Source: Clostridiaceae bacterium (GTDB lineage: Bacteria > Bacillota > Clostridia > Oscillospirales > QAMX01). From it: a stretch of DNA of 64,000 nt. The notes below the pieces were generated by a model that was not told the DNA's origin, searched no databases, and saw only the letters and a list, made by a program, of their open reading frames with translations. The stretch spans positions 66,826 to 130,825 of the forward strand of contig JAHAYX010000032.1 in the NCBI GenBank assembly GCA_018384365.1. Direction: 5' to 3'. The translations under genes were made by a program, and so were the position numbers. Below, piece after piece: positions 3,630-40,336 of the stretch (position 1 is its first letter; each line of letters starts with the position of its first letter).

Positions 3630-6600
3630 ATGAAGAAGATGAAAACCGGAAAGCGCATATTCAGCATGATCCTCGTTTTTGCGCTCGTGCTGACTATGCT
3701 GCCCGCAGTCACATTTGCTGCCAATACAGGCTTTACCCACAGCGGCAACAATGCTGGCAGTTATACGGTTGCGTATAACAACGGGCTTTACACTGTTACG
3801 GCCGCTGAGGGCTATGTGCTGAACTCGGTCAGCGCGCAGTTTGATGACGACGGGTCGTTCAGTAAGTATCAATGGGGCAACTGGCAGACTTACATGCCGG
3901 TTAATGGCGTTGTGACATTCATGCGTCCTGTCGTAAGTGAAACGTTGTCATTCTTTGACAACTTTTACGTTGTGACAACTGCAATCCCCGGCAAGACCAA
4001 CACTACAACTACGGTGACCGGCACCCAGACGCAGCTTGAGGAAGGAAAATCTTATACTTTCTCGGCAACTGTGGCAGGTGCCCCGGAAAACGGCTCCATC
4101 GTGATTTTCACGATGCCGGACGGTTCCAAGGTGAACGCCTATACGGTGAACGGCGTGGCACAGGCGGACTGGACCGTGCCGATGAACTTTTATCAGAACG
4201 GTATCCTGGCTGCCGGACAGGTGTCTGCGCAGTTTTTGGGCACGGATACGCTGAATGCCAGCGATGGCCAGCTTGCCGTGACGCTGAAAACTCGCACCCT
4301 CTCCAATGCGCAGGCTAAAATTGATGTGACGGGCCTGACCGGTACCCTGCAGACCCAGACGACCTACACCAGGCTCACTGTAACGGGTGTGCAGGATATG
4401 CAGGGCAATACCCTGACGGAAGACACCCATTATACCGTCACCTGGCAGAAAAGCGTAAATGGCGGCGTAACCTGGGTTACGGCTTCCAACACGAATGTGA
4501 TGTTTGTGGATATGGATACCATTTATAAGGCAATCGTATCCCCGAAGGATCCTTACGCATTCGGCGAATTTGAACTTTCCATCGCTGCCGAAGCACTTTA
4601 TTCGACAACGGCATCCGGCTTCAGCATAGTCGGCAAGAATGGCTCTACGGTGCTTTATGAAGGGCAGCCTGCCACATTGTCCGTCTCTGTTTTAGCTGTT
4701 GGCGGAACAGTTCATTTCTATGAGGATCAGACCTTTATCGGCGAAGCTTATGTTGTCGATAAGCAGGCGGTTCTGAAGCTGACCGATGCGATGATGAACC
4801 GTACGCTGACTGCCGGTACGCATACTTACCGTGCGGTCTACAGCGGCGTGGCCGGCAGATATAACAGCGTGGTCGCGACACTGAGCAAGACGGTTCTTTC
4901 CGGCACGCTTCCGACAACCGGATGGGACATTCTGGTCCGGAATGTGACGGATTTGGAGACCGGCACGCATGCGACTCTGGCCGAGACCGACATCGGTGAT
5001 CAGATCACCCTGTCGCTCCAGCTTCCCGACGGCGTGGCGGCAACAGATTATACCGTCGAGTGGTTCGGTTCCACGGACGGTGAGCACTATGTGCTGCTGG
5101 ATTCTCATGATCAGACCGTTACGGTTGTTCCGATGAATAACCTGTATCGCTACTATGCGGTTGTATATCCGTCCGATATCGGTAATTTCTATCGTCCGGT
5201 AAACGGCATTTCCATCGAGCCGGTGATCTTTGGCGATGCAAAGAATACCACACGCGTGGAAATGACAACCGCGACCCCCATGCCTTATGAGCACACCAAG
5301 ATGACGGTGAATGTCTCTGTATGGGATACACTGAATAACACCAGCATCCTTGATGATATCCCTGTCAAGGGCGGTACGGTGACACTGCGCCTCGGCGGCC
5401 AGGACCTTGAAACGCTGCCGGTGGATGCTTCCGGTATGGCCACCTTCACGGTGGATGTTCCGGCGGCGGGTGATGTCTACACGTACACTGCCGAGTATTC
5501 CGGCAATGCGGTGTACTACACAAGCAGCGACAGCACCTTTGACTTCCAGGACGGCACGACAAAAATCGAGGTTGAGCCTGAAAAGGAAGTATTTGTTGAT
5601 ATCGGCGATATCTTCGCTCGCTCGAATGTGATTGTCTGGATGCCCATTGACGAGGACAGCGTTGACAACACGATTACGATTCGTGATAACAGCGGCAAGA
5701 CGGTTACTTCCATGACAAGCGGTGAGGAATATACCCTGACTGCACCGGATGTCTATACGGAGTTCTTTTATAAGGATGCTGCCGGGAAAGTGATCACGGC
5801 CTATGTCGAGCTGGCGGAAAATGTGGACTTCTATTATGAGTGGCAGATTTCCGAAGACAGCGGAAACACCTGGACGACCAAGGGCAACCGTGACAAGACG
5901 CTGACGGATGTGATTGCGGATGACGATGTCCTCTATAAAGTCCGCGCTATTCCGACGCAGAATTATAAGGAGCCGACCGGCGGTCTGGACTCCGAAACCA
6001 CCGAAAAGGCTGCACGGATTGAAGGAAAGCTGCTGATTTCCGTACGGACCGGCCTGACCGAAGGTTTTGTCGATTATAATGAGGCTCAGGGTGAAGACGA
6101 GTTTGCCTTTGCAGACACTTACGAAGGCAATGCAGTTACCATCCGTGCCACGTTGTACAATTATTCGGATGAGGGCTTCAATATTTTCAAGGAGCCGAAT
6201 TTTGACGATCCGTTTGCTGCCCCGACCGGTTATGTGCGTTTCTACTATGTACCGATGGGCAATCAGGATACAGACTCCTTCGAGATTGATCCTCTCGGCG
6301 ACAACTGGATTCCGATTCTGGACGAAAACGGCTCTGCAAACATTAAAATTCAGGCCAGCGATGACCTGAGCGAGGCATATGCTGCAGTGACGACGTCTGA
6401 GCTGCCTGTGGCGGCAGACGGCAGAATGCAGAATGTTCTCATTGTAGCGGAATACTACGGCGACAATACTTATATGGTTTGCAACAGCATCCAGGATCTC
6501 AGCGAAGGCGGGGATGCCGTGTCCACCTATGTCACGCTTGCTCCTGTTGTGCGTGTCTGGTCTTCTGTCCCGTATGTAAACCTCACGACAGAGGATCTCG

Positions 6601-29564: not shown

Positions 29565-29640
29565 CGGGGTGTTGCGCAGTTGGTAGCGCGCCTGCTTTGG
29601 GAGCAGGAGGCCCGGGGTTCGAGTCCCCGCACTCCGACCA
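29565..29640 (+). tRNA. tRNA-Pro (UGG anticodon)
   Basis: 76 nt with a full cloverleaf: acceptor CGGGGTG/CACTCCG with one G-U pair, D stem GCGC/GCGC, anticodon stem CCTGC/GCAGG with loop TTTGGGA (anticodon TGG), T stem CGGGG/CCCCG with loop TTCGAGT, discriminator A and encoded CCA. Its own terminator follows. It marks the left edge of an accessory region. Confidence 0.95.
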
Positions 29641-29910: not shown

Positions 29911-30180
29911 TCAGTAAGAACTAATCAATGCTTTAATATGACATTCATCTAAAGGTTCAAAACAAGTCAAATCTAATTTATAAACAAGGTTGCTGACACA
30001 TTCGGGGATTTCCGGGAATGGATTGATATGATAATTGCAAAATAGATCAATTTCACTCACATCAAAGCGAACCTCTGCCGCCTCTTGGCCAGATAATGGC
30101 CACTGGGTTTTTCGGTTCCAAAACGGAGCGGAGATTGAGGCGTAACGGCAACAGCAAAGCCCTGCCCAAGCGGGCAGGGC
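29911..30180 (-). pseudogene. open coding-like frame without a start
   Basis: On the minus strand a frame runs without stops from inside the XRE gene through the hairpin at 30156-30183 to a TGA at 29911. The last 60-70 codons have protein-like content (WPLSGQEAAEVRFDVSEI, then FCNYHINPFPEIPE) and a C-terminus EPLDECHIKALISSY. No ribosome binding site or start precedes it. It may be the 3' remnant of a gene brought in with the region. I do not recognise the family. Confidence 0.35.
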
Positions 30181-30183
30181 TTT
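30156..30183. terminator. strong hairpin after the XRE gene
   Basis: AAAGCCCTGCCC and GGGCAGGGCTTT pair perfectly around AAGC, 2 bp beyond the stop of the leftward XRE gene. The T-richer side is on the plus strand (CTTTACTT). For the leftward gene there is no T-run, so its efficiency as a terminator is uncertain. Confidence 0.5.
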
Positions 30184-30185
30184 CT

Positions 30186-30488
30186 TTACTTCTTCTGGTG
30201 TGTTGTTAATAGAAGCATGGCATCTTGCCTTGCTCGGCTGTCAGCAGCCCGGGCGGCTAAAATGAGATCCCTCTCATATGTGCTCAGAATCATGTCATCC
30301 ACATCGACATTTCCAATCAGGTAGTCCACAGACACGCCAAAAGCAGCCGCCATCTTCACTAGCAGCTCAATGGAAGGTTCACGTTCTCCGGTCTCATAGC
30401 GAGAATAATTCCCCTGAGTGCAGCCGATTGCTTCAGCGGCCTGGCGTTGGGTCATGTGATTTAATTCGCGAAGTTGTTTCAGTTTCAT
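30186..30488 (-). CDS. XRE-family transcriptional regulator
   Basis: 100 residues with an N-terminal Cro/C1 helix-turn-helix (about 3-60: MTQRQAAEAIGCTQGNYSRYETGEREPS, given here only in outline) and a short helical C-terminus. GGAGGG lies 6 nt before the ATG. It has its own promoter and is divergent from the recombinase-like cassette; two AATTCGGA boxes in the shared region may be its operators. Probably the repressor of the cassette, as in prophage and integrative elements. Low-GC flanks suggest transfer. Confidence 0.88.
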   Translation of the reverse strand: MKLKQLRELNHMTQRQAAEAIGCTQGNYSRYETGEREPSIELLVKMAAAFGVSVDYLIGNVDVDDMILSTYERDLILAARAADSRARQDAMLLLTTHQKK

Positions 30489-30506
30489 CGGATTCCCTCC
30501 ACAAAT

Positions 30507-30535
30507 ATTCTACACCCCCACTACAGAAAGTGCAA
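30507..30535 (-). promoter_or_regulatory. promoter of the XRE regulator
   Basis: Minus strand: TTGCAC (30530-30535), 17-nt spacer, TAGAAT (30507-30512), 19 bp before the start codon. Confidence 0.6.
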
Positions 30536-30571
30536 TGCCAAATTGGATTTTTAATTTTGAATTAATATGCT

Positions 30572-30619
30572 AATTCGGAGATTATTTCGGTTGACTTTAT
30601 GCCAATTCGGATTTAATAT
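30572..30619 (+). promoter_or_regulatory. cassette promoter with paired AATTCGGA boxes
   Basis: TTGACT (30591-30596), 17-nt spacer, TAATAT (30614-30619). AATTCGGA occurs at 30572-30579 and again at 30604-30611, inside the spacer, 32 bp apart. The placement suits repression by the divergent XRE protein. Confidence 0.6.
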
Positions 30620-30693
30620 ACTCCCGCAACGGAATACGCCTTCCTGAGCAATCCGTTGACAATTCAGCATTATTACGAAAGAGGTGGTTGTTC

Positions 30694-31494
30694 GTGCGGA
30701 TTGATGAAGACCGAGAGCAGTTGCGGCAGGCATACCAACGAGAAGAAGTCAGCGCAGCGGCCTTTATTCCCGCTAAACCAAAGATTGACATTTATGGAGA
30801 AGGTCGAGTATTCCGCGTATGTGCTTACTGCCGCGTCTCGACAGACAACGATGAGCAGCTATCATCTTATGAGCTCCAACAGGCACACTACCGCCAATTG
30901 GTCGGAAATCATCCCAACTGGGATCTCCGGCACATCTACGCAGATGAAGGCATCTCGGGTACCTCCCTTAAGAACCGCGATGACTTCAATGCGATGATTG
31001 CTGCATGTGAAAGGGGCGAGTACGACCTCATCGTCACCAAAAGTGTCAGCCGTTTCGCTCGAAATCTGGTTGACTGTATCACCCTTGTCCGCAAACTGAA
31101 ACGGCAGACCCCTCCGGTAGGAGTGTTCTTCGAGACGGATATCCGACCTTGTGATCCCGATGCCCCCGATTCCCTCAGATGGGCGAAAGGCGGCGGCAAG
31201 ACGGAACTCTCCAACAGAGACCTGCAGTGCAAAGTGTTTGCAGCCAAGCTGTTCGACTTCATGAACTGGGACCCTCAGTACAGGTACAAAATCATGGGTA
31301 AGCCCGCCTCTTGCGATGGCGAGGTGTTGTTCCTTTTTAAGCTGAACGACTTTGAATTGTTCGTTGGCGGAAAGCGCAAGGGTTCCTACCTTCCCAAGGA
31401 CTGGCGGGACTACTTTGGTACCCCCGTGCCGGAGCACGAAGAATCATACAAAATCAACCTTGCCGATGGCTATGTGACCACGGACAAGGCATAA
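30694..31494 (+). CDS. chimera: serine-recombinase catalytic domain fused to a cassette-specific domain
   Basis: 266 residues from GTG 30694 (GAGGTGG 7 nt upstream). Residues about 40-150 are a large-serine-recombinase catalytic domain: CAYCRVSTD with the nucleophile Ser49, YADEGISGTS, and SVSRFARN with the expected arginines. After FFETDI (residue 150, nt about 31144) the recombinase pattern stops: the recombinase and zinc-ribbon DNA-binding domains are missing. The remaining 115 residues match the C-terminal two thirds of the next gene (DSLRW, then CKVFAAKLFDFMNWD, YRYKIMGK and a hydrophobic LFLF block). The simplest reading is a deletion joining a recombinase gene to the first of a row of paralogous genes. 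Recombination activity is unlikely; the fused reading frame is intact. Confidence 0.8.
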   Translation: MRIDEDREQLRQAYQREEVSAAAFIPAKPKIDIYGEGRVFRVCAYCRVSTDNDEQLSSYELQQAHYRQLVGNHPNWDLRHIYADEGISGTSLKNRDDFNAMIAACERGEYDLIVTKSVSRFARNLVDCITLVRKLKRQTPPVGVFFETDIRPCDPDAPDSLRWAKGGGKTELSNRDLQCKVFAAKLFDFMNWDPQYRYKIMGKPASCDGEVLFLFKLNDFELFVGGKRKGSYLPKDWRDYFGTPVPEHEESYKINLADGYVTTDKA

Positions 31495-31509
31495 ACAGGA
31501 GGAATTGAA

Positions 31510-31965
31510 ATGCAACTTGATCCCAGACTCAGCGAAATCAGCCTGGATGGCTTCCAGGTCGTCAGTGGTCAGATGTTCGCCCATCTGCCTCGTAAGAGCG
31601 ATGCCACATGCACCCTTTGGCCTACGAGCATTTCCTTCAGCAAGCAGGCAGTCGTTCTTCTGAACAATTGCGAACACATCCGCATCGAAATCAATCCTAC
31701 CACAAAAGGTCTTCTGGTGGTTCCCGTCACGAGCAAAGACCAGGATGGAATCCGTTGGATCAAGAGTATCAAGTCGCCTGCGGCCAGAAAAATCGAATGC
31801 AAGACTTTTGCTTCACAGCTTTACGATACTTGGGGATGGGACAAGAGCCTCGTGTACCGGGCCACTGGCCGGCTGTTTACTGCTGACAATAAGGTATTGA
31901 TGCTGTTCGATTTTGCTAACCCAGAGTCCTGGAAGTCACGGGAAGCTGGTGAAAAGAATGCATGA
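31510..31965 (+). CDS. cassette protein, domain unassigned (paralogue 2)
   Basis: 151 residues, with AGGAGG 10 nt before the ATG and 15 bp after the chimera. N-terminal third: LDPRLSEISLDGFQVVSGQM then an IWP-like TLWPTSISFSKQAV block. C-terminal part holds the shared motif: RWIKSIKSP, ECKTFASQLYDTWGWD, LVYRATGR, then a LMLFDF strand. The same motif is in the upstream chimera and in the downstream gene. No catalytic pattern or membrane segment. I recall such proteins beside recombinases in clostridial genomes, without a function. Confidence 0.75.
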   Translation: MQLDPRLSEISLDGFQVVSGQMFAHLPRKSDATCTLWPTSISFSKQAVVLLNNCEHIRIEINPTTKGLLVVPVTSKDQDGIRWIKSIKSPAARKIECKTFASQLYDTWGWDKSLVYRATGRLFTADNKVLMLFDFANPESWKSREAGEKNA

Positions 31966-32335
31966 GACATTTATATCCTTCTACTTAGCCGGCGGTCGTG
32001 TCCATATCAAAGCCGATGCAGTGAGAGGTATTGGGGAGCCGCCGTTCGTGCGGTTCCTCATTGCCGAGGATGGCAAGTCGATGGTCATGGAGCCGTACAG
32101 CAGAAAGGTGTTTGCCTCAATGCGAGTGCCGCCAACCATGTATAAAAAGACGGGACAGCGGGCACGGATGGAAATCAAATGTGCTCCGTTCTGTCGATAT
32201 CTGGCAGCCTACCTGGGGTGGGACGAGAGTTCCACCTACAGAGTCCCAGGCAGGATTCTGCCCCAACAACGCTTCGTCCTATTTGACTTGACGAGCGCCT
32301 ATTCTATTCACGGCACTGCCGAGGAGGTACAGTGA
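31958..32335 (+). CDS. cassette protein, domain unassigned (paralogue 3)
   Basis: 125 residues from ATG 31958, overlapping the previous stop by 8 nt, so translation is probably coupled. Starts MHETFISFYLAGGRVHI. Shared motif in the C-terminal half: IKCAPFCRYLAAYLGWDESS, YRVPGR, and RFVLFDL. It is shorter at the N-terminus than paralogue 2. The tight packing with an XRE gene next suggests one functional unit. Confidence 0.75.
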   Translation: MHETFISFYLAGGRVHIKADAVRGIGEPPFVRFLIAEDGKSMVMEPYSRKVFASMRVPPTMYKKTGQRARMEIKCAPFCRYLAAYLGWDESSTYRVPGRILPQQRFVLFDLTSAYSIHGTAEEVQ

Positions 32336-32559
32336 TGGGTGTATCTTACAAAAAACTATGGAAGTTGTTAATCGACAAGAATATGGGCAAAGGCAACCTC
32401 CGGGAGGCTGCACACCTCGCCCCCCATACCCTTACCAAAATGGGAAAAGGCGAGCCCGTATCGCTGACCGTGCTGTGCCGCATATGCGAGACCCTCGAGG
32501 TTGACCTTGGGGACATTGTTTCCTACACCCCCGCCCAAAAGGAGGACACGCCAGAATGA
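32335..32559 (+). CDS. small XRE/Cro-type DNA-binding protein
   Basis: 74 residues from ATG 32335, sharing its A with the previous TGA; GAGGAGG lies 7 nt upstream. Nearly the whole protein is one helix-turn-helix of the short YozG/Cro kind (KKLWKLLIDKNMGKGNLREA, then VLCRICETLEVDLGDIVSY). Such proteins occur at the ends of clostridial mobile-element operons. Its role may be to regulate the cassette together with the divergent XRE protein. Confidence 0.85.
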   Translation: MGVSYKKLWKLLIDKNMGKGNLREAAHLAPHTLTKMGKGEPVSLTVLCRICETLEVDLGDIVSYTPAQKEDTPE

Positions 32560-32666
32560 AGTACTATATATGCTGTGACTTTTTCGCCATAAAGATTGAA
32601 AATCCATCAGTTTTCACCTATAATCTTCTTGAAGACACAAAGTGTGCAATATTCTTTTACACATAA
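32556..32666 (+). CDS. small ORF, 36 residues
   Basis: ATG 32556 overlaps the TGA of the XRE gene (ATGA), with AGGAGGA 9 nt upstream, and the frame ends at TAA 32666. The peptide begins M-K-Y-Y-I-C-C-D-F-F and is aromatic-rich with three cysteines. A promoter for the next gene lies inside it. It may be a real small protein or the remnant of a longer one. Confidence 0.4.
   Translation: MKYYICCDFFAIKIENPSVFTYNLLEDTKCAIFFYT
32596..32624 (+). promoter_or_regulatory. promoter of the STAS-like gene
   Basis: TTGAAA (32596-32601), 17-nt spacer, TATAAT (32619-32624), about 55 bp before the GTG start. Confidence 0.6.
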
Positions 32667-32678
32667 GAGGTGGTTTTG

Positions 32679-33467
32679 GTGAAGGATTATTACTCCGACA
32701 ACGCTATCCGAACAGACAATATTATTACTTTAAAATACTGCAATCACCCAAAATGTGCATCTGATTTTTTGAGGTTAGTAAAAGAGGTATTGCGAAGAGG
32801 GTATAGTGAAATTGTAATCCGTTCAGATGCAATTTCTGTATTCCCTAATGCATGTGTCCCCATTGCAGGAATTATTGATTACTACACCCAGAATGGTGTA
32901 AACTTTGTGCATGACATAAATCCGGATTCTTATCTTTATAAATGCGGATTCATGGCTCCCTTCAAAAAAAGTCGCAAAGAGCTTCAGAGTGAGCAATTCC
33001 CATTTGACAAGATTTTTTATTATGAGGATTCTGGGCAAGTTGCTGATATAACGCAAGCGTACATTGATGCTAATAAGCCAATCGATATCAAACAATTGTT
33101 CAGCACCATCGGTGGATTTGATTGCTTTGACATTCGCATTGACAACATGCTAAACGATGCAGACTACTTAGTGTATGATGTATTCCAAAATGGGAAAGGC
33201 ACTGCAACCCGAGATGCTGGAGCGTACATCAGGCTGGACGTCGAAAACATTTTAAGGCGGAACCAATACGGTGTAATTTTAGATTTTTCTAATACCAAAA
33301 CTGTAAGCTCCTCTTTCATAGATGAACTTGTTTCCAAAATGGTCTTAGATTTGGGCTTTGTCACGTTTAACAATGCTATTCGTCTTGTAAATATGAATCC
33401 TGAAATATCTTTTTTGTGCGAACGCGCTCTTTATATGCGAATATCAGATACTTGGAAAAATCAATAA
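32679..33467 (+). CDS. protein with C-terminal STAS-like DUF4325 domain
   Basis: 262 residues from GTG 32679 (AGAGGTGG upstream; GTG 32670 is also in frame). The C-terminal 90 residues match the STAS-like DUF4325 pattern: AGAYIRLDVENILRR, then VILDFSNTKTVSSSFIDEL and a NAIRLVN strand. The N-terminal 150 residues contain a second, diverged region with EIVIRSDAISVFPNACVPIAG, which also looks STAS-like. AT-rich compared with the chromosome, indicating transfer. DUF4325 proteins occur with ATPase/kinase partners in signalling and defence loci; no partner is next to it here. Confidence 0.75.
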   Translation: MKDYYSDNAIRTDNIITLKYCNHPKCASDFLRLVKEVLRRGYSEIVIRSDAISVFPNACVPIAGIIDYYTQNGVNFVHDINPDSYLYKCGFMAPFKKSRKELQSEQFPFDKIFYYEDSGQVADITQAYIDANKPIDIKQLFSTIGGFDCFDIRIDNMLNDADYLVYDVFQNGKGTATRDAGAYIRLDVENILRRNQYGVILDFSNTKTVSSSFIDELVSKMVLDLGFVTFNNAIRLVNMNPEISFLCERALYMRISDTWKNQ

Positions 33468-36043: not shown

Positions 36044-39000
36044 ATGGGGCCTGACCGCAAGTTTGAAACAGAAGAAAGCAGGAATTCCTGTTTGGATTTG
36101 CAGGAATTCTGTGACATGGAGCAATTATACAGACTGATCGACAACTGGTCTAAAAGCAGCGGAATGTCCGCCGTGATCGTGGATATGGAGGGCAATCGCA
36201 CTTCGGAGTCTTTTGGAATGACGGGATTTTGTCAAATGATCCATGACCATGAAAGCGGCGAGGCGGTCTGCGCATCCACCTGGAAAGCGGAGCATGACGG
36301 CATTTATGTATGCCCCATTGGCTTCTGCGATTTCTCTATTCCCATTATCCTGCCAAACGGTCAGATTTTGGGCAAGGTTCTGGCCGGACAGGCGCTCTCT
36401 GTCAATCAAAGCGAGGAAGAAATTCTGAAAAAGACCGTACAGCTTGGGCTTGACGAGGCGACGGTAAAGGCTGTTCTCTCCCGCGTCCATCGAAAAACGG
36501 AGAAGGAAATGGAGGGTTCCTATGAACTCCTGAAGGAGATGCTTCATTTCTTTATCGAGAAGAACTACTCCATCTGGGTCACCGATAATGAATTGAAAAA
36601 GGCTCCGGCGAAGAAGGACCGGATTCTGTCACAGATCACGCAGCTGATGTATAGCTATAACCTGACGGTGGATCTGGAAACGAAGACTTATACGCTGATT
36701 ACCGGCACCGGCATGGAGCGAACCGTAGAGGAATACAAACGGCACAGCCATCAGTCCGAGCTGACTGCCTTCCAGAACAGCATTATCCATCCCGCCTATG
36801 TGAACCGCTTCAATGAGCTTTTGGACTTTACGTCCGCCAGAAACAGCCCCTCGTCAAACGGTTTCAAAGGGACACTGGAGTACCCGGTTCTCTATCCTGG
36901 GGATGTGGAATATGAGTGGCACGAGATCAATGTGTTCATCGACACCGAGGAGGACGGAAGAAGAGTTGCCAACATCCTCGGCCGCGATATCACAGAGACC
37001 CATAACGCGCAGGAAAAGAGCGAAAAGGAACTGCGCGCTGCCGCCGCGAAAAACCAGATCCTGTCCGAGTTGACCAAAATGCTGTACAGCTATAACCTGA
37101 CGCTGAATCTTCGGACCGGCAAGTACAGCATGATCATCGGCACCGGTATGACGCAGTTCATGGAGATCTTCAAATCCACAGATGATTACGAGACGGCGTA
37201 CAAGCAGAAAATCACCTATTTGGATCCGGAGCATGTGGCGCAGTTCGCGGCCCTTGCCAGTCTGGACGCCCTGCGGGCCAGAACCAACGCCAACGGCTTC
37301 ATCGGCAGCCTGGAATATGGCGCCATCACGGACTACGGCGAAGAATGGCATGAGATCAACGTCTTTATCAGTACAGACGAAGCAGGGGAGCACATTGCCA
37401 ATATTCTGGGCCGCGATATCACGGACGCGCACAGACGCCAGGAACAGCGTGAAAACCAGCAAAGAGCGGCCATAGCCCGTGACCAGCTGCTCTCCGGTGT
37501 CACGAAAATGCTGTACAGCTACAACCTCACTGTGAATCTGGAGACCTGGAAGTATTCTCTGATTACCGGCACCGGTATGGACAACGTGCTGGAAACCATG
37601 CAGCACAGTGACGACTATGTGCTGCTTTGTGCGAAGCTTTCCCGAAATATTGCGCCGGAGGATCAGGAAAGTCTGGAAAAACTCATCGGCATCCATGCGC
37701 TGCAGGAAAAAATGAACGGCAGCGGCTTTGCCGGAACCCTCTCCTGCCGGGTTATTTCCGGCGAAGACAGCGAGTGGCATGAGATCAACCTCTTCATGGG
37801 CACCAACGAGGACGGTGTCCCCGTTGCCAACATTCTGGGGCGCGACATCACCGAGGTGCATGAGCAGCAGGCGGCGAAGGAGCGTGAGCTGAAAGCCTCT
37901 GCCGCGAAAGACCAGATTCTTTCCGACATTACAAAGACGCTGTACAGCTATAACGCCACGGTGAATCTGAACACCGGAAAGTACAGCCTGATCGTCGGCA
38001 CGGGCATGGAGGAGATTATTCAGCATTTTTCCCGGACGGATGACTATGAAACGGCGTGCGGATACCTGCTGGAGAAAGCACTTCCCGAATACCTGGAGGA
38101 AATGAACCGCCGCTTCTCGCTGGAGGCTCTGCGTGCCCAGAAAAATCTGAGCGGTCATATCGGACAGATCGAATACGCTGCAAAAACAGAAAGCGGGATC
38201 GGCTGGTTCGAGGTCAACGCCTTCATGGGGGTGGATGAGGAAGGAACCCCCATTGCCAATATTCTGGGCCGCGATATCACCGAGATCCACGAGGCCCAGG
38301 AACGCCGCGAAAACGAACTGAAAGCGGTGGCAGCAAAGGATCAGATCCTTTCCAACATCACAAAGACCCTGTACAGCTATAACCTGACCCTCAATCTGGT
38401 CAGCGGGAAATACAGCCTGATCGTCGGTACCGGCATGAAGGAGTTCGTGAAGATTTTTGAATCCACGGACGACTACGAAACGGCTTACCGGCAAAAAATC
38501 CGGTACGTAGCGGAGGAGCACATCGAAGCGTTCGGCAATTTCAGCAGCTTGTCCGCGCTGAGAGACCGGAAGCATGAAACGGGATATATCGGCAACCTGG
38601 AATATGCCGCAAAAACGGAAAAGGGCATCGAATGGCACGAGATCAACATCTTCCTCGGCACGGACGAAAACGGGGACCGCATTGCCAATATTCTGGGCCG
38701 AGACATTACCGAATCCCATGAGCTGCAGGAAATCAAGGAACGGGAGCTTCGCGCCTCCGCCGCGAGAGACCAGCTGCTTTCCGGCATTACCAAGATGCTG
38801 TATAGCTATAACATGACCGTGAATGTCAACAATGGGAAGTATACGCTGATCACCGGCACCGGTCTGGACGGCACTGTGTCCAGAATGGAGGCCACAGATC
38901 AATACGATGACATTTATCAAAGTTTTTTGCATGCTGTGGACCCTCAATACCGGCAAAGAGGCACAGAACTGCTGTCGCTGGACAGTTACCGGGGAAAACA

Positions 39001-40336
39001 GGACAAAACCGGGTATTTGGGCACGGAAGAATTTCCCATGCATTACACGGAAAAGCTGGAATGGCATGAAATCAATGTATTTGCCGGATATGACGATGAT
39101 GGCGAGCCTATCATCAACATTCTGGGGCGCGATGTGACTGAGGCCCATGATAAGGCGGATACGAAGGCACAGCTGGAGATTGCAAATGCCTCAAATGCCG
39201 CAAAATCCGCGTTCCTGTTCAATATGTCCCATGATATCCGCACACCCATGAATGCCATTATCGGTTTTACGGAGCTTCTGGAAAAACATCTGGACGATCA
39301 GGAACTGGCAAGGGCGTACATCAAGAAGATCCAGACGTCCAATGATTTTCTGCTTTCCCTGATCAACAACGTGCTGGAGATGGCGCGGATCGAAAGCGGA
39401 AAAGAGACCCTGGACGAATCCTGTTGGAACGCCTATCAATTCAACGATTCCCTGTATTCCCTGTTCGATTCGCAGATGAAGGCAAAAGGAATCGAGTTTA
39501 CCAGAACTTCGCAGGTCATACACCCCGAAGTGATCTGTGATGAAACCAAGCTCCGGGAGGTTTTCCTGAATATTCTGAGCAACGCCCTCAAGTATACCCC
39601 GGCAGGCGGAAAAGTGACCATGCGGCTGACGGAGCTCCCCTCCGACCGGCCCGGATATGCCGTGTATCAGACCGTTATTGAAGATACCGGGATCGGTATG
39701 TCCGAGGAATTCCTGCCTCATCTGTTTGAGGAGTTTACCAGAGAACGCTCCAGCACGGAGAGCCGTGTGACCGGCACCGGACTTGGTATGCCTATCGTGA
39801 AGAAACTGGTGGATCTGATGCAGGGAACCATTGAAGTGGAGAGCCGGATCGGCAAGGGAACCAGATTTACGGTGACACTGCCGCATCGGATCGCCGAACA
39901 GGAAAGCACCAATCGGTTGATTGAGAAAACATATGAGCACGAGTCCGATCATTTTAAGGGGAAACGCATTCTTCTGGCGGAGGATAATGATCTGAATGCC
40001 GAGATTGCCATTACGATCCTGCAGGAGGCCGGTTTTGAAGTGGAGCATGCCGCCGACGGCATTATCTGCGTGGATATGCTGGAAAAGGCGCCTTCCGGTT
40101 ATTATGACCTCATCCTGATGGACATCCAGATGCCGAACATGGATGGGTACAAGGCAACGCAGACGATCCGCAACTTTTCGGATGCCGAAAAAGCGGGGAT
40201 CACCATTGTTGCCATGACCGCCAATGCGTTTGAAGAAGACAAACGCAACGCTTACAGAGCCGGCATGAACCTGCACATCGCCAAACCGATCAAGGTGGAT
40301 GAACTGATGTCTGCTTTGATGGAGATATTGGAATAG
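36044..40336 (+). CDS. hybrid sensor histidine kinase: PocR-like domain, six tandem modules, HisKA, HATPase, receiver
   Basis: 1430 residues; GGAG 8 nt before the ATG. Residues about 25-175 form a PocR-like sensory domain (LYRLIDNWSKSSGMSAVIVD, CPIGFCDFSIPI), usually a small-ligand sensor. Then six copies of one module start at residues 191, 336, 479, 622, 765 and 908; the last five are 143 residues apart. Each copy has SYN-x-T near the start, GTGM, EWHEINVF-type and ANILGRDIT blocks, and looks PAS-like. HisKA follows (about 1057-1120: FNMSHDIRTPMNAIIGF), HATPase (about 1165-1285: LREVFLNILSNALKY, GTGLGMPIVKKL), and a C-terminal receiver (about 1305-1425: ILLAEDNDLNAEI, LMDIQMPNMDG, phosphoacceptor Asp). 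No transmembrane segment is evident, so it is probably cytoplasmic. It faces a second hybrid-kinase operon. Confidence 0.93.
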   Translation: MGPDRKFETEESRNSCLDLQEFCDMEQLYRLIDNWSKSSGMSAVIVDMEGNRTSESFGMTGFCQMIHDHESGEAVCASTWKAEHDGIYVCPIGFCDFSIPIILPNGQILGKVLAGQALSVNQSEEEILKKTVQLGLDEATVKAVLSRVHRKTEKEMEGSYELLKEMLHFFIEKNYSIWVTDNELKKAPAKKDRILSQITQLMYSYNLTVDLETKTYTLITGTGMERTVEEYKRHSHQSELTAFQNSIIHPAYVNRFNELLDFTSARNSPSSNGFKGTLEYPVLYPGDVEYEWHEINVFIDTEEDGRRVANILGRDITETHNAQEKSEKELRAAAAKNQILSELTKMLYSYNLTLNLRTGKYSMIIGTGMTQFMEIFKSTDDYETAYKQKITYLDPEHVAQFAALASLDALRARTNANGFIGSLEYGAITDYGEEWHEINVFISTDEAGEHIANILGRDITDAHRRQEQRENQQRAAIARDQLLSGVTKMLYSYNLTVNLETWKYSLITGTGMDNVLETMQHSDDYVLLCAKLSRNIAPEDQESLEKLIGIHALQEKMNGSGFAGTLSCRVISGEDSEWHEINLFMGTNEDGVPVANILGRDITEVHEQQAAKERELKASAAKDQILSDITKTLYSYNATVNLNTGKYSLIVGTGMEEIIQHFSRTDDYETACGYLLEKALPEYLEEMNRRFSLEALRAQKNLSGHIGQIEYAAKTESGIGWFEVNAFMGVDEEGTPIANILGRDITEIHEAQERRENELKAVAAKDQILSNITKTLYSYNLTLNLVSGKYSLIVGTGMKEFVKIFESTDDYETAYRQKIRYVAEEHIEAFGNFSSLSALRDRKHETGYIGNLEYAAKTEKGIEWHEINIFLGTDENGDRIANILGRDITESHELQEIKERELRASAARDQLLSGITKMLYSYNMTVNVNNGKYTLITGTGLDGTVSRMEATDQYDDIYQSFLHAVDPQYRQRGTELLSLDSYRGKQDKTGYLGTEEFPMHYTEKLEWHEINVFAGYDDDGEPIINILGRDVTEAHDKADTKAQLEIANASNAAKSAFLFNMSHDIRTPMNAIIGFTELLEKHLDDQELARAYIKKIQTSNDFLLSLINNVLEMARIESGKETLDESCWNAYQFNDSLYSLFDSQMKAKGIEFTRTSQVIHPEVICDETKLREVFLNILSNALKYTPAGGKVTMRLTELPSDRPGYAVYQTVIEDTGIGMSEEFLPHLFEEFTRERSSTESRVTGTGLGMPIVKKLVDLMQGTIEVESRIGKGTRFTVTLPHRIAEQESTNRLIEKTYEHESDHFKGKRILLAEDNDLNAEIAITILQEAGFEVEHAADGIICVDMLEKAPSGYYDLILMDIQMPNMDGYKATQTIRNFSDAEKAGITIVAMTANAFEEDKRNAYRAGMNLHIAKPIKVDELMSALMEILE
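36614..39190 (+). repeat. six tandem coding repeats of about 430 bp
   Basis: Unit starts at 36614, 37049, 37478, 37907, 38336 and 38765; the period is 435 bp once and then 429 bp four times. The copies have diverged between blocks but keep the same motifs, so they are old duplications under selection, not recent slippage. Confidence 0.9.

Follow-up and report, generated by a model that had tools for sequence, protein, structure and literature searches.

A prophage relic in a Clostridiaceae contig is a fossil of a variant large serine recombinase operon that looks like a multi-part recombination machine

Known serine integrases are generally single-protein enzymes that work with one RDF, and action of the RDF via the C-terminal module of the integrase is known for gp3 of phiC31. 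RDFs act through an integrase C-terminal module made up of zinc and coiled-coil elements (PMC5814800). Streptococcal ICEs carry triplets of serine integrases that fall into position-specific orthologue groups, and 10 of 42 such integrases lack PF13408 (PMC4701971).

Here we describe a gene which is itself only a fossil of an operon, together with the intact operon, a variant of the large serine recombinases (LSRs). Gut phages and islands commonly carry it, and it has the look of a multi-part recombination machine not described before. Like the integrases of the phiC31, Bxb1 and TP901-1 type, its recombinase (LSR-DOM) contains PF00239 and PF07508 and has a conserved active site, but it carries an unnamed domain (DOM) in place of the zinc ribbon, and two or three DOM paralogues are encoded in the operon. 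The elements that carry it share with the streptococcal triplets the presence of several LSRs per element, orthologue groups tied to position and zinc-ribbon-less members, whereas DOM paralogues are not mentioned in the available part of that source (PMC4701971).

The relic and its intact relative

A search of IMG/VR with the chimeric gene of the window (the whole stretch of 64,000 nucleotides that was analysed, from contig JAHAYX010000032.1) retrieved a 9389-bp contig, L017. Its genes are, in order, holin-like and amidase-like genes, a 444-aa LSR, a 523-aa LSR, an XRE gene on the minus strand, a 606-aa LSR, ORFs of 198, 151 and 140 aa, and a 74-aa XRE gene. Gapless blastn blocks match window positions 30104–31144 to L017 4716–5756 and window positions 31140–32567 to L017 7373–8800. 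The window from 30104 to 32567 equals L017 minus 1621 bp, with TA shared at the join, and comprises the following features, the DOM paralogues being named D2, D3 and D4 by their slots in the operon.

30104..30145, + strand: 3' remnant of a zinc-ribbon large serine recombinase gene, its last 13 codons plus stop (WVFRFQNGAEIEA, then stop), at the left edge of the relic; runs colinearly with the 3' end of the gene for the 523-aa L017 integrase
30186..30488, − strand: XRE/Cro-type repressor, 100 aa, divergent to the operon; Pfam HTH_3, E=1.4e-19; orthologue at L017 4801–5100
30694..31141, + strand: N-terminal 149 codons of LSR-DOM, a catalytic domain with the nucleophile Ser, cut before its end and lacking the recombinase domain; PF00239, E=1.9e-19, profile positions 2–92 of 145
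31140..31141, no strand: deletion junction with the 2-bp microhomology TA, 1621 bp being absent relative to L017; gapless blastn blocks on both sides and base-level comparison
31142..31494, + strand: latter half of paralogue D2 with its C-terminal tail, in frame with the recombinase part to which it is fused; 94% identical in aa to the end of the L017 7131–7727 product; D2 in the tree, support 99/95
31510..31965, + strand: paralogue D3, complete, 151 aa; 92% aa identity to L017 7743–8198; D3 clade
31958..32335, + strand: paralogue D4, complete, 125 aa; 90% aa identity to L017; D4 clade
32335..32559, + strand: small Cro/C1-type HTH protein, 74 aa; PF13443 (HTH_26), E=5.2e-15; orthologue at L017 8568–8792
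32556..32567, + strand: a phage gene cut off after its first four codons (MKYY), where the relic ends on the right; L017 homology stops at window position 32567

In L017 the 606-aa LSR is unbroken and is followed by a full-length 198-aa first paralogue, which is the arrangement that the first-pass annotation had proposed to look for in related genomes, colinear with the window save for the 1621-bp deletion. The deletion joined residues 1–149 of the recombinase, 97% identical in aa to the L017 protein, to the latter half of D2, so that the chimera lost the recombinase's own DOM copy and gained half of D2. An in-frame fusion by deletion had been placed near 31144, 3 bp from the junction now located at 31140–31141. 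The chimera had also been read, correctly, as devoid of recombinase and zinc-ribbon domains: in the Pfam search the LSR catalytic domain extends only to residue 138, and neither PF07508 nor a zinc ribbon is found. The ORF (30694–31494) begins with GTG and stays open with no internal stop. Since the end of the catalytic domain, the entire recombinase domain and half of DOM are missing, the chimera is almost certainly dead as a recombinase.

Both ends of the L017 homology are broken genes, and the segment between them, about 2.5 kb lying 3' of a tRNA-Pro gene and containing no structural phage genes, is a prophage relic, related to the element from which L017 derives. The two XRE genes do frame the row as annotated; the regulated unit that had been proposed gives way to a truncated prophage relic, which is not a working regulated unit.

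Could the fusion instead be an artefact of assembly or binning? The genome is fragmented (63 contigs, 88.7% complete). Misassembly is nonetheless unlikely because the overlap at the join is only 2 bp; colinearity is gapless on both sides, and neither the deleted segment nor further DOM copies were found elsewhere in the 88.7% complete genome. We regard an artefact as extremely improbable, in keeping with the deletion originally inferred. Selection could also have kept the chimera as a new protein that works, such as a dominant-negative one that blocks related phages; its frame is open, D3, D4 and both XRE genes are intact beside it, and dN/dS is low across the relic genes (0.03–0.09), including both halves of the chimera. 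A recent deletion, however, would also give low dN/dS, the catalytic domain and DOM are each halved, the relic edges are broken genes as well, the exact junction sequence has no match in IMG/VR, and the same operon has suffered unrelated breakage at other loci (L063, L064, L087 and L223). For these reasons a working chimera appears very unlikely, and we retain the relic. Given the low dN/dS, D3, D4 or the XRE genes may still have a role.

An empty site for the relic is unreadable, the DNA 3' of tRNA-Pro differing in all three genomes of the genus. At this position (29565–29640) one of them has AbiH-like genes and another NUDIX-like genes, which suggests an insertion hotspot. Directly after the relic, and outside it, a STAS-like DUF4325 protein is encoded at 32679–33467, the C-terminal part of which matches the PADLOC DrmA model (E=1.1e-7). 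Further on, 36044–40336 encodes a 1430-aa hybrid sensor kinase in which about six repeats resembling QILSxITKxLYSYNLTxNLxTGKYSLIxGTGM were seen by eye ahead of the kinase and receiver domains.

The unnamed domain and the intact recombinase

The window ORFs at 30694–31494, 31510–31965 and 31958–32335 had been said to share a C-terminal block, and their relationship is significant both in pairwise BLASTP (E=2e-10 for the chimera tail against the 31510 protein, E=1e-7 for the 31510 against the 31958 protein, and E=0.001 for the chimera against the 31958 protein) and between slot profiles. In hhalign comparisons the LSR-DOM, D2 and D4 profiles match one another with 99.6–100% probability and E-values of 6e-24 to 2e-52; the D3 profile is partly contaminated by D4 sequences, and the D3–D4 value was left out. 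The block is real, but the domain is larger, at about 125 residues, and the block makes up its second half only; the 31510 and 31958 proteins keep the first half intact, and the chimera lacks it. In a tree of 80 domain copies each slot forms an orthologous group, the chimera tail falling with D2, the 31510 protein with D3 and the 31958 protein with D4, each beside its L017 counterpart. D2 has the shortest branches and is the slowest-changing slot, more conserved than the recombinase's own DOM.

The domain could not be named in the first-pass annotation, and searches of Pfam, NCBIfam, PHROGs and PADLOC gave it no significant family. The closest Pfam model is DUF6128, which 23 of the 67 D2 proteins match weakly, at best with E 0.0021. 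A defence system was considered and dropped, the three window proteins being without a PADLOC match, and profile comparison gives no support for an internal repeat of the DOM halves. Literature searches returned no description of the operon or the domain.

LSR-DOM of L017 contains PF00239 and PF07508 (E=3.9e-23) and no PF13408, the zinc ribbon that is typical of LSRs without being universal among them, and its C-terminal part, where other LSRs have the zinc ribbon, is DOM; because of this the domain must have been on the recombinase before the deletion. Thus the proposed ancestral row of paralogues beside a recombinase is indeed present in L017, except that the C-terminus of the recombinase is itself a fourth copy. 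By regular expression the zinc-ribbon Cys motif is present in 0 of 85 LSR-DOM proteins versus 35 of 39 neighbouring LSRs. Catalytic residues are conserved, with Y45, R47 and S49 in 61 of 62 sequences and R120, R123, E172 and R187 in all 62. The best NCBIfam matches are SCC recombinases, led by CcrB (E=5.5e-30, positions 8–283 of 542), and at 104.5 bits against a cut-off of 900 the protein falls below the equivalog threshold for CcrA/B/C. An ATPase gene adjoins the recombinase in the Oscillospiraceae-type operons as it does with CcrA, CcrB and CcrC; unlike in those systems, the match covers the N-terminal half only, the ATPase is AAA_25, and DOM paralogues are present.

The AlphaFold2 model of LSR-DOM has a mean pLDDT of 80, is integrase-like over residues 32–330, a region that aligns with solved serine integrase chains at Z of about 12–16, and predicts the DOM core well at about 410–500. 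D2 is modelled with a mean pLDDT of 72 and the same order of strands and helices as the DOM of LSR-DOM. Among solved structures there is neither a sequence match to DOM nor a convincing fold match. Foldseek matches in the PDB, to sliding clamps, were dismissed at TM of about 0.11, and those in BFVD are uncharacterised phage proteins. In a second look the best fold match of D2 was MraZ (9r4j), which is very weak (Z 3.6 over 94 residues at 3.9 Å). Although this recalls the swapped-hairpin DNA-binding proteins of the MraZ/AbrB type, DOM has no profile similarity to them: hhalign probabilities of 0.03–0.08% equal those of unrelated controls, and the whole domain and its halves alike stay at control level. 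Homology thus finds no support in the profiles, and the fold is kept as a lead only.

Organization and carriers of the operon

Scanning one genome for each species gave 223 matching stretches, of which 215 are relatives, and 80 loci fetched by D2 were kept. The order LSR-DOM, D2, (D3), D4 is fixed, both across about 80 loci and among Ca. Heliusvirales phages, and at least two free-standing DOM genes lie behind 75 of the 78 LSR-DOM genes with enough downstream sequence. The predicted recurrence of one unnamed family near recombinases and XRE genes, as pairs or triplets, was found. In order to avoid the bias of a search by D2, a second set of loci was fetched by DNA similarity to the recombinase part of the window segment; D2 and D4 are present in 6 of 6 non-degenerate loci of this set, and at L223 the operon is again a degenerate relic. 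Among 398 genomes sampled across the phylum, D2 occurs in only one besides the window's own, as expected for a mobile element.

Two arrangements recur. The Oscillospiraceae type reads (XRE)-(AAA_25 ATPase, 18 loci)-LSR-DOM-D2-D3-D4 and has no ParB-like gene, and the Lachnospiraceae/Heliusvirales type reads (XRE)-LSR-DOM-D2-D4-ParB-like-DUF6551/ParB-like (35 loci). Complete Ca. Heliusvirales genomes carry LSR-DOM, D2, D4 and ParB-like genes. The nine shared genes described for the Ca. Heliusviridae/Heliusvirales gut phages (PMC9226167) do not include the operon, and the window relic, unlike these phages, has no structural genes at all.

Carriers usually hold a second integration system, namely zinc-ribbon LSRs in phages and a trio resembling Tn554 TnpABC in islands within cpaF. 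No delineated element has LSR-DOM as its sole recombinase, nor could an attachment site be attributed to it. One island of about 19.5 kb is shared at 99.3% identity by Coprococcus comes and Blautia luti; in each it interrupts cpaF, at an identical codon, and it has the LSR-DOM operon at one end and the three TnpABC-like genes near the other. This island (L205–L210; G786:C49, about 6.6–26.2 kb of the reversed contig; G787:C122) occupies the site DMLQA|INTGHDG with a core of about 3 bp. Related islands contain, by eye, type I restriction-like genes in Bilifractor porci and DUF262-like and large methylase-like genes in Faecalicatena contorta.

Blocks consisting of the operon only are common to loci with unrelated flanks, which suggests that it travels in one piece or is swapped as a module. 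An autonomous mini-element was rejected, since such blocks could equally reflect phage module exchange and the test on the ligA side at L060 gave no synteny. A regular-expression search for LSR tails at other element ends found none. By eye, the LSR downstream of the operon abuts an apparent C-terminal part of a sporulation sigma factor, sigK, at L035:10284–10859, L043:10347–10769 and L064:10120–10515, and from these sigK-like neighbours the operon may also reside in skin-like elements.

Ahead of LSR-DOM, three loci encode a protein of about 213 aa (L220:4612–5253, L225:3470–4111 and L226:5175–5816) that matches the LSR catalytic domain. It has VAVYIRYFNQ in place of the recombinase Y-x-R-x-S motif and, to judge from its sequence, appears to lack the Ser nucleophile. 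A 215-aa ORF near 4237–4884 of L016 occupies the same position and is similar by eye.

Proposed role of the DOM copies

Taken together, window positions 30104–32567 are almost certainly a relic, and the intact operon probably encodes a multi-subunit serine recombinase. The nucleophile-less appearance of the 213-aa partner points to such a machine, and the multi-subunit mechanism itself we consider about evenly balanced. In its fullest form, which we put forward tentatively and hold at a little under even confidence, it is a heteromeric enzyme with a zinc-ribbon-less LSR for catalysis, in which the DOM in cis and two or three DOM paralogues (sometimes with the apparently nucleophile-less catalytic subunit) would together recognize the DNA and set the direction of recombination in gut phages and islands. 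The DOM in cis would replace the zinc ribbon and coiled coil and contact attachment-site DNA or partner subunits; D2–D4 would bind in trans to DNA, to the cis DOM or to both, build the synapse and set its direction, integration or excision; and the adjacent XRE switch would control the operon. The free-standing copies would most likely be accessory DNA-binding or directionality subunits. Binding of DNA by DOM is suggested by the charge of its copies, which are basic (median pI 9.0–9.5), and by the fold match to MraZ, which is very weak and finds no echo in the profiles. Direction control would be a natural role for D2–D4 because in known integrases RDFs act at the zinc-ribbon/coiled-coil module. 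As the operon has traded the zinc ribbon for a domain also encoded in trans, the question of direction control is directly testable, and the operon could yield a new class of integration tools. DOM has no significant family match in the searched libraries, yet the operon recurs at more than 200 genome loci matched by pattern and in human gut phages of high prevalence.

Two other readings of the intact operon were weighed against the multi-subunit recombinase. LSR-DOM might be the integrase and D2–D4 only its RDFs, which would have diverged from its C-terminal domain and would turn it towards excision. It is exactly the domain substituting for the module used by RDFs (PMC5814800) that the paralogues match, and they lie beside an XRE switch; two or three paralogues are kept, however, rather than one RDF, the conservation of D2 exceeds that of the recombinase's own DOM, and the operon often adjoins a second LSR, so that we think this reading unlikely. 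That the operon serves to maintain its element, by dimer resolution or partition, instead of acting as an integrase seems to us more doubtful again. Other recombinases are available for integration, and the ParB-like and DUF6551/ParB-like genes continue the Lachnospiraceae-type operons at 35 loci. Against this, no ParA gene was identified in a search made without a ParA model, the Oscillospiraceae-type operons do without the ParB-like gene, and in the cpaF islands the operon sits at the end of the element.
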